From assembly GCA_022706865.1 (NCBI GenBank), contig JAKJBT010000006.1, positions 1 to 39,196 on the forward strand: DNA of 39,196 nucleotides. Direction: 5' to 3'. Shown in pieces: positions 16,644 through 35,818 of this stretch. The position numbers and the translations under genes were made by a program. The stretch's first letter is position 1. Each line of letters opens with the position of its first letter. Source of the DNA: Bacillota bacterium (GTDB taxonomy: Bacteria > Bacillota_A > Clostridia > Lutisporales > Lutisporaceae). The notes beneath the pieces are model-generated. The model made no database searches. It worked only from the letters and a program-made list of their open reading frames with translations, and was not told the origin of the DNA.

Positions 16644-19244
16644 CTATATCATTTCTTTGGCCTTATCCTGCAGCTCCTGGAGCTTGTTAAGCGCCTGAAC
16701 AGGCGTAATATTAGCCAGATCCACGGATTTTAACTCTTCAGCTAATGAAAAACTTACAAAATTAAATAGGTTAGGTTCATGGTCATTTAAAACCGGATTC
16801 TTTCTTCTTCGCCTGACATATACGTCAGTGTGACTGTTCTTTTCGGATTTTTGAAGTATTGATATTATTTCCGAGGACCTTTCAAGTATTTGTTCCGGTA
16901 TTCCTGCAAGCCGTGCCACTTGAATTCCGTAACTGCCTCCTGCTCCGCCCCGTGCGATTTTTCTCAGAAATACTATGTCTTTTCCTTTTTCCTCCACCAA
17001 TATGCAATAGTTCTTGACCCCTTCAATCTTGTCCTCCAGTTCAGTAAGCTCATGGTAGTGGGTTGCAAAAAGAGTTTTGGCTCCAAGCTTTGCTTTGTCA
17101 GCTATGTATTCCACCACAGACCAGGCAATGCTTAGTCCGTCGAAGGTACTTGTGCCTCTTCCTATTTCATCAAGTATTATCAAGCTTTTGCAGGTTGCAT
17201 TATTTATAATATTTGCAAGCTCGCTCATCTCTACCATGAAGGTGCTCTGGCCCGATGCCAGGTCGTCGGAGGCCCCTACCCTGGTGAATATCCTGTCCAC
17301 AACGCCAATCTCCGCTTTTGATGCCGGAACGAAGCATCCTATCTGAGCCATCAGCGTTATAAGCGCCACCTGCCTCATATAAGTGGATTTCCCCGCCATA
17401 TTGGGCCCTGTGATAATAAGCATCCTGTTCTCATCATTATCAAGATTCGTATCATTGGGTACGAACTTAAGCTCTTTGTCCTGGGCTTCCACCACCGGAT
17501 GCCTTCCGTTTTCTATAATTATTCTGTCCTCATTATTTACTTCAGGCCTTACATAATTATTCTTCTGGGATACCTCAGCCAGGGAACACAGACAGTCAAG
17601 GTCTGAAAGGCATGAAGCTGTCTGCTGTATCCTCTTAATATGCCCCGCTATTTCATTCCTAATTTGTATAAAGGTCTGGTATTCCAGTTCTATAAGCTTT
17701 TCCTCGGATCCCAGTACCAGGTCTTCCAGTCTCTTCAGCTCAGGAGTGATATATCTTTCCGAGTTTGAGAGGGTCTGTTTCCTGATAAAATACTCCGGAA
17801 CAGAGGGCAGGTTTGATTTTGTTATGTCTATGTAATATCCGAAGACCTTGTTAAAGCCTATTTTCAAAGATTTGATACCCGTCTTTTCTTTTTCCGCCTG
17901 TTCCAGCTCCGCAATCCATTGCTTACCGTTGACCGATGCCGAACGTATCTCGTCCAATTCCGGAAGATAACCGTCCTTGATGAGATTCCCCTCCCTGAGT
18001 AAAAAGGGCGGATCTTCATTTATTGATGCATCAATTATTAGGAACAAATCCTCAAGCACATCCAGCTTCTCGGATATATCCTTCATAAGGGTGCTTGTAC
18101 AATCGGACAGCAGGCTTTTAATGTAGGGCAGATTCCTGATTGAGTTCTTGAAGGCTATTAGATCCTTCCCGTTGGCACTTCCCAAAGCTATGCGGGTTGC
18201 CAGCCTTTCAATATCATACATGCTCTTCAGGTATTCCTTTATTTCTTCCCTCTTCAGAAAATCATCATACAACTCAGCTACAGCGTCAAGCCTGCCGTTA
18301 ATGTCAACCGTGCTTAAAAGGGGTTTTTCCAGCCAACTTTTAAGCTTCCTTCCTCCCATGGCGGTGGAAGTTCTGTCTATTACTGATAGAAGCGCTCCTT
18401 TCCTGGATTTGCCCCTGATTGTCTCCGAAAGCTCCAGATTCCTTCTGGTGCTCTGGTCCAGCACCATGAAATTGCTTATGCTGTATCTCTTAATATAGTT
18501 TATATTATCCAAACTGATCTTTTGAATGTCATCAAGGTATAAAAGCAACGCCCCGGCACTTCTTAAAAGTGTTTCATTGTCTATTCCAAGCCCTTCAAGG
18601 CTTGATACGCCGAACTGCCTTTTAAGCCTTCTCTCACATGGTTCGTGGTCGAAATACTTCTTGTCCAATATGTTGCAAGCAGAGTATGCTGCCTTGATAT
18701 CCTGAAAATCTGTGTTGGAAATTATCTCAGCCGGATTAATCCTGCTTATTTCGTTTCTGACAGCCGATGCATCGCTTATATCTGCATATGTGCAGTAGAA
18801 TTCTCCTGTGGAAAGGTCTGTATAGGACAATGCTGCCTGCCTGCCGTCGCTATATAAGCTTAAAAGGTAATTGTTGACTCTTTCATCAAGCATTGAGCTT
18901 TCTATTACCGTACCGGGGGTTATTATCTTTATTACCTCCCTGCGGACTATGCCTTTTGCCAGTGCAGGATCCTCAACCTGCTCACATATTGCCACCTTGT
19001 AGTTTTTTTCTATAAGCTTTGCAATATAGCTCTCTGCCGCATGATATGGAATGCCGCACATAGGTGCCCTTTCCTCCTGTCCGCAATCCCTTCCCGTAAG
19101 GGTTATCTCCAGCTCCTTGGATGCGGTTATTGCATCCTCAAAAAACATTTCATAGAAGTCACCCAGTCTGAAGAACAGTATTTTGTCCTTATGCTGGTTT
19201 TTTATTTCAAAATATTGCTTCATCATTGGTGTAAATTGCGCCAT
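16644..19244 (-). CDS. mutS: DNA mismatch recognition protein MutS
   Basis: 866 residues, the usual length. The mismatch-wedge motif GDFYEMF lies near residue 27-33. The ABC-type ATPase at the C-terminus shows Walker A GPNMAGKST (about 610-618), STFMVEMSE, Walker B LIILDEIGRGTSTFDG and the ATHYHEL switch. The ATG overlaps the miaB stop by one base (TAATG), which couples translation of the two genes. The last ~50 residues form the tail that binds MutL or the sliding clamp in related proteins. Confidence 0.98.
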   Translation of the reverse strand: MAQFTPMMKQYFEIKNQHKDKILFFRLGDFYEMFFEDAITASKELEITLTGRDCGQEERAPMCGIPYHAAESYIAKLIEKNYKVAICEQVEDPALAKGIVRREVIKIITPGTVIESSMLDERVNNYLLSLYSDGRQAALSYTDLSTGEFYCTYADISDASAVRNEISRINPAEIISNTDFQDIKAAYSACNILDKKYFDHEPCERRLKRQFGVSSLEGLGIDNETLLRSAGALLLYLDDIQKISLDNINYIKRYSISNFMVLDQSTRRNLELSETIRGKSRKGALLSVIDRTSTAMGGRKLKSWLEKPLLSTVDINGRLDAVAELYDDFLKREEIKEYLKSMYDIERLATRIALGSANGKDLIAFKNSIRNLPYIKSLLSDCTSTLMKDISEKLDVLEDLFLIIDASINEDPPFLLREGNLIKDGYLPELDEIRSASVNGKQWIAELEQAEKEKTGIKSLKIGFNKVFGYYIDITKSNLPSVPEYFIRKQTLSNSERYITPELKRLEDLVLGSEEKLIELEYQTFIQIRNEIAGHIKRIQQTASCLSDLDCLCSLAEVSQKNNYVRPEVNNEDRIIIENGRHPVVEAQDKELKFVPNDTNLDNDENRMLIITGPNMAGKSTYMRQVALITLMAQIGCFVPASKAEIGVVDRIFTRVGASDDLASGQSTFMVEMSELANIINNATCKSLIILDEIGRGTSTFDGLSIAWSVVEYIADKAKLGAKTLFATHYHELTELEDKIEGVKNYCILVEEKGKDIVFLRKIARGGAGGSYGIQVARLAGIPEQILERSSEIISILQKSEKNSHTDVYVRRRRKNPVLNDHEPNLFNFVSFSLAEELKSVDLANITPVQALNKLQELQDKAKEMI

Positions 19245-20689
19245 TATTGTTTCACCTCATCAACCATTTGGCCGTTCAAAAACCATGAATGGATTTCATT
19301 TATCCTTACATTCACCAGCTTGCCGATTATCCCGTCAGTTCCTGTGAAATTCACAACCTTGCCGGTTCTTGTCCTTCCGGTATATTTTGAAGGGTCATTC
19401 TTGCTGCTGCCCTCTGCCAGAACTTCAACGGTTTTGTCCATGTATTCATCATTCAGTTTTTTTGATATGCCATTCTGAAGCTTTACCAGCTTTTCAAAAT
19501 TCCTGTGTTTATCCTCATAGCTGGACGTATCCTCCATTTCGGCAGCAGAAGTACCGACTCGCCTTGAATATATGAACATAAATACCTGATCAAATTCTAC
19601 CCTTCTCAATACATCAAGGGTCTCTTCAAAATCCTCGTCGGTTTCACCGGGAAAACCAACTATTACGTCTGTACTGAGAGCCAATCCGGGTATTTCCTGC
19701 TTTGCCTTAAATACCTTATTAAGGTATTCCTCTTTTGTATACTTCCTATTCATCCTTTTCAATATTTTGTTGCTCCCTGCCTGGAAAGGCAGGTGAAGCT
19801 GCTCGCATACCTTTTTGCAGTCTCTCATGGTATGAATAAGTTTATCGGAAATATCCTTAGGGTGTGAGGTCATGAACCTTATTCGCTCAATTCCCTCTAT
19901 TTCATTTACCATTCTTATGATGTCGGCAAAATCCACTCCCATATTTAAATCCTTGCCGTAGGAATTCACATTCTGACCCAGAAGTGTTACTTCTTTGCAC
20001 CCGTCTTTGGCAAGGCTTTCAATTTCTTTTATGATATCCTCAGGCTTCCTGCTCCTCTCCCTCCCTCTTACGTGAGGCACTATACAGTAAGAGCAGAAAT
20101 TATTGCACCCATACATAATTGTAACCCATGCCTTGAACTTTTCCTCCCGCAGCACAGGTATATCCTCTATTATCATGCCCTCGGTGTTCATTATATCTAT
20201 CAGGGTATATTTCTCATCAATTGAGCGTTCAAGCAGCTCAGGAAGCTTGTATAGGTTGTGAGTGCCGAATATTATATCCACATGCCGGTATTTCTTTCTG
20301 ATCATTTCAACCGCATGCTCCTGCTGCATCATACAGCCGCATACACCTATTATCAGTGACGGATTCTCCTCTTTAAGCTTTTTTAATGCACCGATATTGC
20401 CGTACAGCTTCAATTCTGCGTTCTCTCTTACACAGCAGGTATTAATTATTATGACATCAGCATGTTCTTTTATATCGGTTCTGGCATATCCCATTTCAGC
20501 AAGCATACCCATTATCTTCTCTGAATCGGAGTTGTTCTGCTGGCAGCCGAAGGTTATCACATGCATGCGTTTCTGCTTTCCCGTCTTAAGCTTTTCAATA
20601 TCATTGTTCTCTCTTATTCTCAGGGCTATTTGCTTTTGCCGTTCCATTTCGGCATTATTAACTTTATCTGGTGCTTTTCTTTCCGACAT
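19244..20689 (-). CDS. miaB: tRNA-2-methylthio-N6-dimethylallyladenosine synthase MiaB
   Basis: 481 residues, a radical-SAM methylthiotransferase that adds a methylthio group to i6A37 of tRNA. The N-terminal MTTase domain (about 40-160) has cysteines in ITFGCQQNNSDSE, INTCCVREN and GVCGCMMQQ for the auxiliary iron-sulfur cluster. The radical-SAM motif CNNFCSYC lies in the centre, then a C-terminal TRAM domain (about 410-475). The N-terminus has a ~35-residue charged extension. GAGG lies 6 bases before the ATG. First gene of the operon. Confidence 0.96.
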   Translation of the reverse strand: MSERKAPDKVNNAEMERQKQIALRIRENNDIEKLKTGKQKRMHVITFGCQQNNSDSEKIMGMLAEMGYARTDIKEHADVIIINTCCVRENAELKLYGNIGALKKLKEENPSLIIGVCGCMMQQEHAVEMIRKKYRHVDIIFGTHNLYKLPELLERSIDEKYTLIDIMNTEGMIIEDIPVLREEKFKAWVTIMYGCNNFCSYCIVPHVRGRERSRKPEDIIKEIESLAKDGCKEVTLLGQNVNSYGKDLNMGVDFADIIRMVNEIEGIERIRFMTSHPKDISDKLIHTMRDCKKVCEQLHLPFQAGSNKILKRMNRKYTKEEYLNKVFKAKQEIPGLALSTDVIVGFPGETDEDFEETLDVLRRVEFDQVFMFIYSRRVGTSAAEMEDTSSYEDKHRNFEKLVKLQNGISKKLNDEYMDKTVEVLAEGSSKNDPSKYTGRTRTGKVVNFTGTDGIIGKLVNVRINEIHSWFLNGQMVDEVKQ

Positions 20690-20715
20690 TTTTTACCTCA
20701 ATCTATAATTCGCAT

Positions 20716-21016
20716 ATTATGAAGAATGCGTCGTACCTGAAGTTTGTAGTCATCCTACAGTGCACTTGCCTTGTATAACAGTGAGCACTTATTGGCTTTG
20801 GCAACAGAATCGAGTGAAGATGCGCAGTAAAATACGTGGGATTTACGTGAGGTAAATCCAGCACATACCTACAGGAGGTAGGGTTTATGTGCGTCAGGAT
20901 TTTACAAGTATCAAGCTCTGATTCTGTCCAAAGCTAATACCGTGCGAGTCGGTATACAAGGCTATTGCTCTGGGAGTATGACTGCGAACTTATAATTAAG
21001 TCGCATTATTCCTCTT
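20716..21016 (+). ncRNA. Long branched hairpin: candidate structured RNA or MITE-like element
   Basis: The 385-base gap between miaB and the PAP2 gene has no convincing reading frame but folds into one long arm with a branched tip. Paired segments, outside to inside: 20721-20730/21002-21011 (one mismatch), 20740-20753/20978-20991 (14 pairs), 20769-20777/20953-20961 (perfect 9), 20785-20801/20928-20945 (with a small loop), 20804-20811/20920-20927, 20812-20814/20916-20918, 20819-20823/20908-20912, 20827-20833/20899-20905. The tip has hairpins 20839-20859 (8-bp stem) and 20861-20892 (7 plus 5 bp). All four wobble pairs I checked are G-U in the plus-strand RNA and would be A-C on the other strand, which favours rightward transcription; TATAAT at 20704-20709 is suitably placed, though its -35 is weak. 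It does not match RNase P, tmRNA, SRP RNA or riboswitch motifs I know. A MITE is the main alternative. Confidence 0.6.
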
Positions 21017-21074
21017 ATGTATTATTATATTTTTGTTCATATTATAACATATATATACAAATTTATCATGGACT

Positions 21075-21977
21075 TTAGGGTAAAAGAGGCAAATCACAAT
21101 CATTTACCCTTGACGGGTATGCAATAACCTGCTCATAAGGCGGAGGCATAAGGTCCGCATTCCTGCTCTCAGTTATCGGAATGTCAATTCCGCTTTGATT
21201 TGCATCACTTTGTTTCATCAGTTCCACTACAATTATTCTTCCTATTTGACGGCCCAGTCTCAAACCTTCAGTTATATCCTCAATAAAATGTACTCCCCCG
21301 TAAAGCCTGGATATGCTGTTTTCCTCAGTCAGTTCTTTTAATCTTTCTGCTTCGGGAGGAAAGAAATGGCTGAGTATGACTTCTGTAGTTCCGGATATCA
21401 CTGAGTGTCCGGAAGGATAGCTCGGAAACTTGGGAGTGCATATTGCGGTAACTAACCTTTGATCTAACTGATTAGGACGCGGCACATCCCATAAATACTT
21501 GAAATACCATGTTATCACAAAGGCATCGTTAATACCTGCCTGTACAGCTGCCAGCACCCTTGCTGCACGTACAGGTGAAAAACCGTACGTATCCAACAGC
21601 CGGTCGATAATCGGCGTCCACTGCTTGGTTGCAGGCCCATCCCCCCAGTACTCCGCGATTATGCGCTGCTTCGGAGTCAAATGCTTAAGTACACCCTTTA
21701 CAATTAACACTGATGCATCAAAATTAAAGTTATCGGGATGCTGGATATCAAAGCTGACAATGTTTCCATCCAAGGTAGTAAACAAACCGTCTTCATTTCT
21801 TCTGAAAAAGTAAGTAGACCAGGAGCCTGCTGCAGGGTCGAGTCCTTGGGGTATCCTTGATTCCCCAGAGTAAGACAACTCCGACCATTTTCTTGGTAAA
21901 TTTACTGCATGCACTGCTTTTTCTTCAGTATGCCTGTCAGAATACTGCATGGCTTTTGTTTTAGGCAGAATTTCCAT
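21075..21977 (-). CDS. PAP2-superfamily phosphatase / vanadium haloperoxidase-like protein
   Basis: 300 residues. All three PAP2 motifs are complete: K160-x6-R167-P168 (KYLWDVPRP), P-S189-G190-H191 (SYPSGHS) and S-R224-x5-H230-x3-D234 (SRLYGGVHFIED). These bind phosphate or vanadate and use the second histidine as nucleophile. No signal peptide or transmembrane helix is visible, so it is probably cytoplasmic, unlike the membrane lipid phosphatases. Its overall form resembles soluble vanadium-chloroperoxidase-like proteins. Substrate unknown. AGAAGGGATGG precedes the ATG. It converges with the structured region at 20716-21016, with no clear terminator. Confidence 0.88.
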   Translation of the reverse strand: MEILPKTKAMQYSDRHTEEKAVHAVNLPRKWSELSYSGESRIPQGLDPAAGSWSTYFFRRNEDGLFTTLDGNIVSFDIQHPDNFNFDASVLIVKGVLKHLTPKQRIIAEYWGDGPATKQWTPIIDRLLDTYGFSPVRAARVLAAVQAGINDAFVITWYFKYLWDVPRPNQLDQRLVTAICTPKFPSYPSGHSVISGTTEVILSHFFPPEAERLKELTEENSISRLYGGVHFIEDITEGLRLGRQIGRIIVVELMKQSDANQSGIDIPITESRNADLMPPPYEQVIAYPSRVNDCDLPLLP

Positions 21978-33027: not shown

Positions 33028-35235
33028 TTATTCTTTAGTTGTTTCTTCAATGGTTTCTTCAGCTGCCTCAGCAATTGGCTTTTCAGCTTCCTCAGTAATT
33101 GCCTTTTCGGCTTCTTCTTTAGCTTGCTCAGCAATTGGCTCTGCTGTTTCTTCCTTAACTTCCTCAGCGGCTGGCTTTTCAGCTTCTTCTTTGGCTTCCT
33201 CAACAACTGGCTTTTCAGCTTCTTCTTTAGCCCCTTCGCCATTTACTTCAATGAGTTCTTTTATACTCAAGCTTATCTTCTTTTCTTCAGGCTTTATATC
33301 AATTATTTTTGCTTTGACGGTTTCTCCTATTTTCAGTGCATCTGAAGGCTTTGCAATTCTCTTGTCAGATATCTGTGAAATATGAACAAGACCGTCTATA
33401 CCCGGTTCAAGCTCTACAAAGGCTCCAAAGTTCGAAAATCTCAATACCTTAACATCAACTGTATCTCCCGGCTTATACTTTTCTCCCACAACAGACCACG
33501 GCTCCGGAAGAGTCTGCTTAAGCCCGAGGGAAATCTTTTTCTTTTCCTTATCAACAGATAATACTATTACTTCAACTTTGTCGCCGGGTTTTACAATCTC
33601 AGAAGGATGTTTAACTCTTGACCATGAAAGTTCAGATATATGAATGAGTCCGTCTACACCGCCAAGATCTGCAAAAGCACCAAAATCAGCAAGTCGCTTA
33701 ACCTCAGCAGTTAATTTCTGTCCTACTTCGATGTTTTCCCATAACGCTTTTTCTTTAATTTCATTCTGCTTTTTCAGAAGCGATTTTCTGGATACAACAA
33801 CTTTTCTTTTATCCGGATCAAATTCAATAACTTCAACATCAACTTTTTTATTAACGAAGCCGCTAAGGTCCTCGGAATACCGTACATCGAACTGGGATGC
33901 AGGCATAAATGCCTTAACGCCCATAATTTCGACTATCCCTCCGCCCTTAACTATTTCCTTAACATAACCTTCAACAGGAGTTTTTTCATTAAATGCCGCT
34001 TCAATTTTATTAAAGTTCTTTTCGGCATCCAGAAGTTTCTTGGAAAGCACGACATTACCTTCACCGTCATTTATGCTTACTACCATTACTTCCAATTCGT
34101 CTCCGGTTTTTATTATATCCTTCAGGTTAACATCAGTCTCCCAGGTATAGTCTTCCTTTTTTATTATCCCGTCGGATTTATATCCAATATTAACCATGAC
34201 CTCATCATCAGTAACCATGATTACGGTTCCTTTTACAGTGTCCCCGGGGTAGACTGATCTCATGGTCTTTTCATATTCTTCCATCATGTTTCCCTGGTCT
34301 TCTGCCGTATCTTCCTGTTTCTCCATTTCTTCCCTATCATCCACTATGTTTTCCTGATTCTCCGCTATTTCTACCGGATCCCCCATAATATTGCCGTTGT
34401 CCTGCATTTTTACGATAACCTCCTTAATTAACCAATCAGGTGTGGATGCACCCGCCGTAATACCAACTGTCTCAAATCTCTTCAGCATTCCTGCCGGCAA
34501 ATCCTCCGCTTTCTCAATATGATAAGCATTATCGCAATTCTCCTTGCATATCTGATAAAGCTTATTTGTATTAGAACTTTTTCTGCTTCCAATTACAATC
34601 ATACAATCAACTTTTTTTGAAAGCTGTTCAGCCGATTCCTGCCTTTTTTCAGTTGCGCTGCATATGGTATTAAATATAATTGCATTTTTATATTTTTTAT
34701 TAATAGCATCCACTACGCTGTCCCAAATTTTTTTTGTAATAGTAGTTTGTGCAACTAAACATATTTTATCATATATAGGAAGTTTGTCTACTGTTTTTTC
34801 ATCCTCAATTACATGTGCCGAATTGTCACACCATCCATTTATACCTATTACTTCGGGGTGAGCTTTATCTCCTGCGATAAATATTTTATAGCCTTTCTTA
34901 TGATATTCCTGTACCTTTTTATGTATTGCCGATACATAAGGACATGTGCAGTCAATATATCCAAATCCCTTTTCTTCAATTTGCCTGTACTTTTCCTCGC
35001 CTATTCCGTGTGAACGAATAATAAGTTCGGCACCTTCACAGTCTATCTCATCTAGGCTGTCCACAGATTTTATACCAAGTTCCTCAAGCTTGCCTGTTAC
35101 CTGATCATTATGAATAAGGGGGCCAAAAGTAAAAATCTTTCTGTCCTTCTTATTATCCGCTTCTCCAAAGGCTTTATCTACAGCTCTTTTTACACCGAAA
35201 CAGAATCCTGCATATTTATCAATAATTATCTTCAT
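33028..35235 (-). CDS. ispH: Bifunctional IspH (HMBPP reductase) - ribosomal protein S1 fusion
   Basis: 735 residues from the ATG at 35235. Residues 1-280 are IspH, the last enzyme of the MEP isoprenoid pathway, which reduces HMBPP to IPP and DMAPP; its 4Fe-4S cysteines C12 (GFCFGV), C98 (CTCPYV) and C192 (TICSATEKRQ) and histidines H42 and H126 are present. An acidic linker (about 285-328) leads to four S1 RNA-binding domains, about 330-400, 418-488, 503-575 and 588-660. The third and fourth carry the RNA-binding DFGAF/NFGAF...HIS motifs. A Glu/Ala/Lys-rich tail fills 664-735. This fusion is known in Clostridia; I infer the S1 part serves as the ribosomal or mRNA-binding S1 protein. The start overlaps plsC by 17 bases, with cmk upstream, giving a cmk-plsC-ispH/rpsA operon. 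Confidence 0.95.
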   Translation of the reverse strand: MKIIIDKYAGFCFGVKRAVDKAFGEADNKKDRKIFTFGPLIHNDQVTGKLEELGIKSVDSLDEIDCEGAELIIRSHGIGEEKYRQIEEKGFGYIDCTCPYVSAIHKKVQEYHKKGYKIFIAGDKAHPEVIGINGWCDNSAHVIEDEKTVDKLPIYDKICLVAQTTITKKIWDSVVDAINKKYKNAIIFNTICSATEKRQESAEQLSKKVDCMIVIGSRKSSNTNKLYQICKENCDNAYHIEKAEDLPAGMLKRFETVGITAGASTPDWLIKEVIVKMQDNGNIMGDPVEIAENQENIVDDREEMEKQEDTAEDQGNMMEEYEKTMRSVYPGDTVKGTVIMVTDDEVMVNIGYKSDGIIKKEDYTWETDVNLKDIIKTGDELEVMVVSINDGEGNVVLSKKLLDAEKNFNKIEAAFNEKTPVEGYVKEIVKGGGIVEIMGVKAFMPASQFDVRYSEDLSGFVNKKVDVEVIEFDPDKRKVVVSRKSLLKKQNEIKEKALWENIEVGQKLTAEVKRLADFGAFADLGGVDGLIHISELSWSRVKHPSEIVKPGDKVEVIVLSVDKEKKKISLGLKQTLPEPWSVVGEKYKPGDTVDVKVLRFSNFGAFVELEPGIDGLVHISQISDKRIAKPSDALKIGETVKAKIIDIKPEEKKISLSIKELIEVNGEGAKEEAEKPVVEEAKEEAEKPAAEEVKEETAEPIAEQAKEEAEKAITEEAEKPIAEAAEETIEETTKE
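33031..33234 (-). repeat. Low-complexity Glu/Ala/Lys-rich repeats coding for the S1 tail
   Basis: Degenerate in-frame repeats of about 30 bases encode variants of EEAKEEAEKP (residues 668-735 of the fusion). Such repeats may change length between strains by slippage. Confidence 0.75.
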
Positions 35236-35818
35236 TTTTATCATCCCTCTTAAGCTCATAAATCTTTTTCATAATATCGATACTTATTTTAATATACTCA
35301 TCATTCAAAAGCTTCTTATCATAGAATTCAGCAAGCTCAATCGGTTCTCCTATAACTACATCTGTCCTCTTAAAAAACTTATAACTGCTGATAATTGCCA
35401 CCGGTACAATCGGAACTTTTGACTTTATTGCTAACATTGCAATACCGGGCTCAGCATCAATTTCTTCACTTTTTTTCCTTGTTCCCTCCGGAAAAAGAGC
35501 AAGGATTTTTCCGCTGTTTAAAAGCTTAAGAGAAGTTTTTATACTCTTAATATCCACTTCCCCTCTTTTTATCGGAAATGCGCCCAGGCTGTTCATCAAT
35601 GCCCTCAGCAGTCTATTTCTGAATAATTCAACCTTTGCCATGAAGTACATCCTTTTTGGTATTGCGATTCCCACAAATATCGGATCTATTGCACTTACAT
35701 GGTTTGCACAGACGATATATGAGCCGTCCTTTGGAATATTTTCCCGGCCTGTTATTCTGTAATTATAAAATAATAAAAATACAGGTATCAATAATGCCCT
35801 GGCAAACCTATAAAACAT
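35219..35818 (-). CDS. plsC: 1-acyl-sn-glycerol-3-phosphate acyltransferase PlsC
   Basis: 199 residues, membrane associated. Motif I is H40-x4-D45 in NHVSAID, motif III FPEGTR at 107-112, with a hydrophobic N-terminal stretch (8-20) and VPIVPVAI near residue 135. It adds the second acyl chain to lysophosphatidic acid to form phosphatidic acid. It lies between cmk and the ispH-rpsA gene. Confidence 0.95.
   Translation of the reverse strand: MFYRFARALLIPVFLLFYNYRITGRENIPKDGSYIVCANHVSAIDPIFVGIAIPKRMYFMAKVELFRNRLLRALMNSLGAFPIKRGEVDIKSIKTSLKLLNSGKILALFPEGTRKKSEEIDAEPGIAMLAIKSKVPIVPVAIISSYKFFKRTDVVIGEPIELAEFYDKKLLNDEYIKISIDIMKKIYELKRDDKNEDNY

Follow-up and report, generated by a model that had tools for sequence, protein, structure and literature searches.

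In the window, i.e., the whole analysed stretch of 39,196 nucleotides, a branched hairpin lies between the start of one minus-strand ORF (19244-20689) and the end of another (21075-21977); reading the sequence alone, we take these genes to be miaB and a PAP2-like gene. Measured from inverted repeat to inverted repeat, the element occupies 20721-21011 on the plus strand, and its outer ends may run about 13 nt further on each side. The ORF list gives one frame within it (53 aa, minus strand, 20703-20864), and no transposase gene is found inside. A search of 20600-21100 against Rfam at E up to 5 returned no matches, and at gathering thresholds the whole window gave two tRNA genes (RF00005; 30588-30661 and 31913-31986, plus strand) and nothing for the element. 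A 743-aa frame at 33028-35259 (minus strand) is, judged by eye, presumably an IspH domain fused to S1-type repeats.

The minimum free energy (MFE) fold of 20700-21030 (plus strand) has 116 pairs and -132.8 kcal/mol (z = -10.3); the mean of 100 shuffled sequences is -82.1 (sd 4.9), and none is as good as the native one. The reverse strand gives -102.3 kcal/mol (z = -6.3). A long interrupted stem leads to a three-way junction with two tip hairpins. The outer pairs are 20721-20723/21009-21011 and 20725-20730/21002-21007. They involve the left terminal inverted repeat GAAGAATGCGTC (20721-20732), a variant of GAA(T/G)AATGCGAC, and the right one, GTCGCATTATTC (21000-21011). In the parsed MFE structure, a helix of 14 consecutive pairs, two of them U-G, joins 20740-20753 to 20978-20991. 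Hairpin 1 (20839-20859; pairs 20839-20846/20852-20859) has the loop GTGAG in the group of the window's copy and a loop of the CA(N)GGANG type in most other clusters. Hairpin 2 (20861-20892; pairs 20861-20872/20878-20892) has the loop sequence ACAGGAGGT. A core of 210 nt (20762-20971) is common to seven sources (the window and genomes G001 and G004-G008), and the inner module (20796-20933) scores 152.5 bits with covariance model R1 and 132.2 bits with model R2, this copy itself being among the source sequences of both. The sequence-only reading had described this branched hairpin from a slightly shorter stretch, with 75-80 pairs; its outer stem from 20721 to 21011 and both tip hairpins are present in the fold, and its 14-pair helix with two G-U pairs is reproduced exactly.

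The same reading had placed a -10 box TATAAT at 20704-20709. The letters are there, but a promoter is not supported: between 20600 and 21120 a scan listed 2 promoter-like sites, this one not among them, where shuffled sequences have 1.7 (sd 1.2), and no TATAAT is kept at the equivalent place in the aligned copies inspected.

Dispersed copies, their sites and ends

The hairpin belongs to a repeat with copies dispersed over the chromosomes of a group of Clostridia and does not represent an RNA gene in single copy. Genome G001, from a close relative, has 16 near-full-length copies (at least 267 bases), 87-94% identical, plus fragments. The DNA search found copies in 6 of 148 genomes, G001 included; full scoring of G004, G005, G006, G007 and G008 gave 11, 9, 18, 3 and 26 matches, respectively, counts that include fragments and reverse self-matches. 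The self-matches in reverse orientation show that the two arms of the core are still alike, as in an inverted duplication.

A search with the PAP2 protein pointed to contig L003 (JAGOLK010000015.1, a Clostridia MAG, genome G001; best segment 93% identical). There, miaB and PAP2 are syntenic with the window, and the intervening stretch is shorter, dissimilar and without the element; model R2 finds none in the contig. Sequence divergence between the two miaB-PAP2 stretches prevents a base-by-base alignment, and the exact insertion point is not visible. Of the signs of an RNA gene proposed earlier, compensatory changes are indeed observed (see below), but a single syntenic copy is not, considering the 16 copies in G001 and the absence at the L003 site.

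Two diverged genomes, G005 (L053) and G006 (L096), share the core at one syntenic position, so some insertions are old and have been kept. In L053 the core adjoins a Methyltransf_4 (PF02390) gene. A clean empty site was not obtained: at the place corresponding to the site of L025, G005 (L165) has an outer-arm remnant and another palindromic repeat, with no core. The latter repeat, of the type GGACACGGGGACGTTTC, begins at about 2730 of L165 (G005:C17) and also occurs in L060, L030, L075 and L079; once it stands beside the outer-arm remnant where the core would be. BLAST at E up to 0.1 gave no matches in plasmid and phage records. Among viral contigs, one sequence pattern matched L162-L164 and a second gave 0 matches; since R2 finds no module in these three contigs at E up to 0.01, the matches are taken as chance and were rejected.

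The copies are intergenic, and their neighbour genes are unrelated to each other. A simple ORF caller was applied to 50 copies. Upstream, the neighbouring gene has the strand of the element in 21 cases and the other strand in 23, and none is visible in 6; downstream, the corresponding counts are 15, 32 and 3. A Pfam search of 20 neighbours revealed no transposase, and two of them had no match at all. With no conserved promoter and no upstream orientation bias, a role at the DNA level is easier to propose than one at the RNA level.

The ends GAA(T/G)AATGCGAC and their reverse complement occur 41 and 42 times in G001 at up to 2 mismatches, against 11 and 14 for the reversed pattern. These terminal inverted repeats are common to the G001 family; other lineages have different ends. 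In G001 these ends also delimit further foldback stretches, 42 to about 300 bp long; the stretches between element-type inverted repeats are very short in L069, L073 and L074 (93, 125 and 42 bp). Base preference fades about 13 nt outside the ends, as judged from 106 end matches, some of which are chance matches in unrelated loci. Target-site duplication was not detectable in 42 end-bounded stretches: the best offset has 3 observed cases against 0.17 expected, hundreds of settings having been tried and several of the stretches joining a true end to a chance end. Of the three features proposed earlier as the mark of a MITE, dispersed copies and inverted repeats are observed and target duplications are not. 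Inspection by eye of the matches in one fragmented genome gave no end pair 0.6-3 kb apart that would suggest an autonomous parent.

Conservation and strandedness of the fold

The branched fold has been kept by compensatory changes while the sequence changed, and the element is not a decaying palindrome. The consensus of 40 copies of the 210-nt core (from the window, G001 and G004-G008) has 78 pairs, 25 of them with two-sided change. Model R1, built on the inner 139 positions, matches 13 of the 22 genomes analysed from the order (E up to 0.001); six of the 13 supplied model sequences and seven are outside its sources (G013, G014, G018, G019 and G023, with weaker matches in G017 at 4.8e-6 and G011 at 4.7e-4). 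The stem sequences in these seven are quite different.

In 39 aligned copies, pairing holds in 96.5% of the cells and two-sided change occurs in 45 of 51 pairs; the double-change cells number 468, as compared with 148.7 (sd 9.9) in shuffled data and 25 to 71 with the partners slid. One copy per genome is advised as a guard against pseudogenes (PMC11234323). Such a set of 13 sequences (the window and 12 genomes, G011 being below the score cut), with identity down to 0.38, gives 97.1% of cells pairing and two-sided change in 41 of 51 pairs, against 25.7 (sd 2.4) pairs expected; its double-change cells number 165 against 46.6 (sd 5.6). The fitting of A6 and A7 to the model biases these two alignments towards its structure. 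Alignment A8 is a check free of this bias, since it was made from the 13 sequences without structural information; it yields a similar fold, with two-sided change in 37 of 49 pairs. The junction and loop bases are conserved; with one sequence per genome, the conservation is 0.82 in unpaired columns and 0.72 in paired ones.

The fold also favours one strand, as assigned to each copy by the covariance model. In 28 representatives of the 91 modules, the plus strand folds better in all 28 with RNA parameters (by 5.9 kcal/mol on average) and in 26 with DNA parameters, and the bias is greater with the former. The window fold has 6 wobble pairs and five 1x1 mismatches, none of them A-C; this G-U asymmetry, noticed earlier in the window, holds across the family. 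G-U cells outnumber A-C cells 156 to 50 overall, 75 to 26 among 42 pairs picked by a strand-neutral rule, 29 to 8 in the cluster consensuses, and only 38 to 21 among distinct departures within clusters; the model was built on the plus strand, so that G-U is somewhat favoured in these counts. The asymmetry argues against a plain palindrome and leaves RNA and single-stranded DNA (ssDNA) unseparated.

The module may occur several times at one place. As model R2 shows, this fold recurs in the B-type elements of G001 and also in the extra hairpin of G006. Several modules are present at 22 of the 65 loci that have one at E up to 1e-9. Neighbouring modules less than 600 bases apart are ordered minus-plus in 20 cases and plus-minus in 0, with 4 minus-minus and 1 plus-plus; many of these pairs go back to a small number of composites (G001/G004, G006, G014/G018, G019), and hence the binomial value of 2e-6 overstates their independence. 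The outer arms and ends vary between lineages, and the core outlives their replacement. At least 5 copies (L043, L109, L111, L116 and L117) have about 50-70 nt more inside hairpin 2; this extra stretch can itself form two small hairpins and represents either the full form or an insertion.

A probable mobile repeat with a structured strand

We conclude that the element is a foldback repeat of the mobile kind whose structure has, at the same time, been conserved on one strand. The earlier choice between a new structured RNA and a mobile element thus meets features of both, a covarying strand-specific fold on the one hand and dispersed copies with inverted repeats on the other; as a whole, that reading is partly supported. 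Our best explanation, which in our judgement has about an even chance of being right, is a non-autonomous mobile repeat with a conserved branched fold that would be recognised as a folded single strand in mobilisation. A trans-acting factor would recognise the folded strand, and the recognised form would most likely be ssDNA during the element's own mobilisation, the main alternative form being a transcribed RNA. Mobility is suggested by the dispersed copies, the inverted repeats of the G001 family, the absence in L003 and the lack of a transposase of its own; the folded strand is suggested by the covariation, the plus-strand bias and the 20 to 0 excess of divergent module pairs. Against the best reading stand the missing target duplication, the failure to see an autonomous partner with the same ends or to obtain a clean empty site, and the core shared at one site by G005 and G006, which makes some copies old. 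The strand bias, greater with RNA than with DNA parameters, and the Y1 transposase data also speak against it.

Y1 transposases are the best-known enzymes acting on hairpin ssDNA. Y1_Tnp is above the cut-off in 8 of 13 carriers of the element and in 8 of 9 non-carriers; these similar frequencies lend no support to Y1 as the mover, and its link with carriage was rejected. In these possibly incomplete genomes, Y1 was not detected in four carriers (G001, G011, G013 and G018) and was under the cut-off in G019; G001 and G018 have many copies of the element.

The foremost rival, which we consider possible but clearly less probable, is a regulatory RNA that is transcribed and has multiplied as a repeat; in the most specific version, the RNA-binding protein CsrA is titrated or recruited by CA(N)GGANG loops of the tip hairpins. 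It would account for the better folding of all 28 plus strands with RNA parameters. GGA occurs in hairpin 1 in 12 of 17 clusters (51 of 91 copies) and anywhere in hairpin 2 in 16 of 17 (85 of 91 copies), and one or more CA(N)GGANG motifs are present on the plus strand of 76 of 91 copies and on the minus strand of 5 of 91. By sequence, these loops resemble the CsrA SELEX consensus RUACARGGAUGU, with GGA in hairpin loops (PMC7652899). However, hairpin 1 lacks GGA in the largest cluster, which is that of the window; the stems are long, whereas very stable hairpins are possibly a disadvantage for CsrA sites (PMC7652899); and promoter-like sites are at the chance level. Moreover, all modules are of common descent, so the loops indicate constraint and not repeated origin. 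Among the carriers 8 of 13 have csrA, among the non-carriers 7 of 9; this is uninformative and shows no link of csrA with carriage. A combined version, a transposable decoy, appears rather unlikely to us: the folded RNA of a mobile element would show one or two CsrA-type loops per module and, multiplied genome-wide in divergent pairs, would titrate or recruit CsrA. If true, a selfish repeat acts as the carrier of a post-transcriptional control site across an order of Clostridia.

A plain MITE also seems improbable. Here a DDE transposase would read the terminal repeats only, and the fold would be a by-product of palindromic origin, its symmetry kept by hairpin-templated repair. The terminal inverted repeats, the further foldback stretches (42 to about 300 bp) that share these ends and the still similar core arms fit this proposal; against it stand the unpaired columns being more conserved than the paired ones (0.82 against 0.72), the strand asymmetry of the fold, the core outliving swaps of outer arms and ends, and the target duplication that was not found. 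A REP/BIME system of unusually large size, with a RAYT (Y1 HUH) transposase as its mover, would explain the divergent pairs, the strand-specific hairpins and the lack of target duplication, but we regard it as very improbable considering the Y1_Tnp counts given above, with none in the copy-rich G001 and G018, and the modules of about 140 nt in elements of about 300, as against 20-40 bp for REPs (PMC3733652).

Structured repeats are usually classed as noncoding RNA candidates or as MITEs, and this family bears the marks of both; its covariation is strong enough to ask experimentally whether RNA or ssDNA is the working form. The loops are conserved while stems and ends are replaced. The family would make it testable what recognises such repeats, and its copies can be used as markers of past insertions in these Clostridia.

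Comparison with known systems

Bacterial MITEs and stem-loop repeats (PMC2267715) are, like the element, small intergenic foldable repeats of similar size. The element resembles MITEs in its short dispersed copies without transposase (in G001) and in its terminal inverted repeats, and differs in that no target duplication or parent transposon was found and that the core is kept across lineages with different ends. REP/BIME sequences with RAYT (PMC2817692, PMC3733652) share the hairpins and the alternating module orientation; the modules of the element are far larger and have no association with a Y1 transposase. If our best reading is right, the strand-specific recognition of folded ssDNA would be common to the element and the hairpin ends of IS200/IS605 (PMC6006769); the element is unlike the latter in having terminal inverted repeats and no tnpA or tnpB gene. 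The CsrA-binding RNAs of the CsrB/RsmZ type (PMC7652899, PMC10729762) carry GGA in hairpin loops, as copies in most clusters of the element appear to; the element has two hairpins per module, is dispersed and shows no link to csrA.

The nearest parallel is the set of 250 mobile or repeat sequence candidates (MRSC) from a survey of 50 bacterial genomes, often located near transposase, integrase, nuclease or helicase genes (PMC11109978). The candidates and the element alike have a covarying structured motif, many copies, a variable gene orientation and the question of DNA or RNA, which that survey poses for MRSC-65-2 (PMC11109978). In the literature, with the MRSC supplements (PMC11109978) outside the scope, we found no published description of the element's fold. 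MRSC-65-2 is described as consisting of one long stem in which a UYCCGG repeat is conserved, and a transposase gene sometimes lies nearby (PMC11109978); the element has a three-way junction, conserved loops and changing outer arms, and among the 20 neighbours tested there is no transposase, integrase, nuclease or helicase gene. The kind is thus already known as MRSC, whose other candidates lie outside this comparison and may include the element, and the branched fold is unlike the single-stem MRSC-65-2. Considering this fold and the lack of an Rfam match, we call the element a new variant of the MRSC kind.
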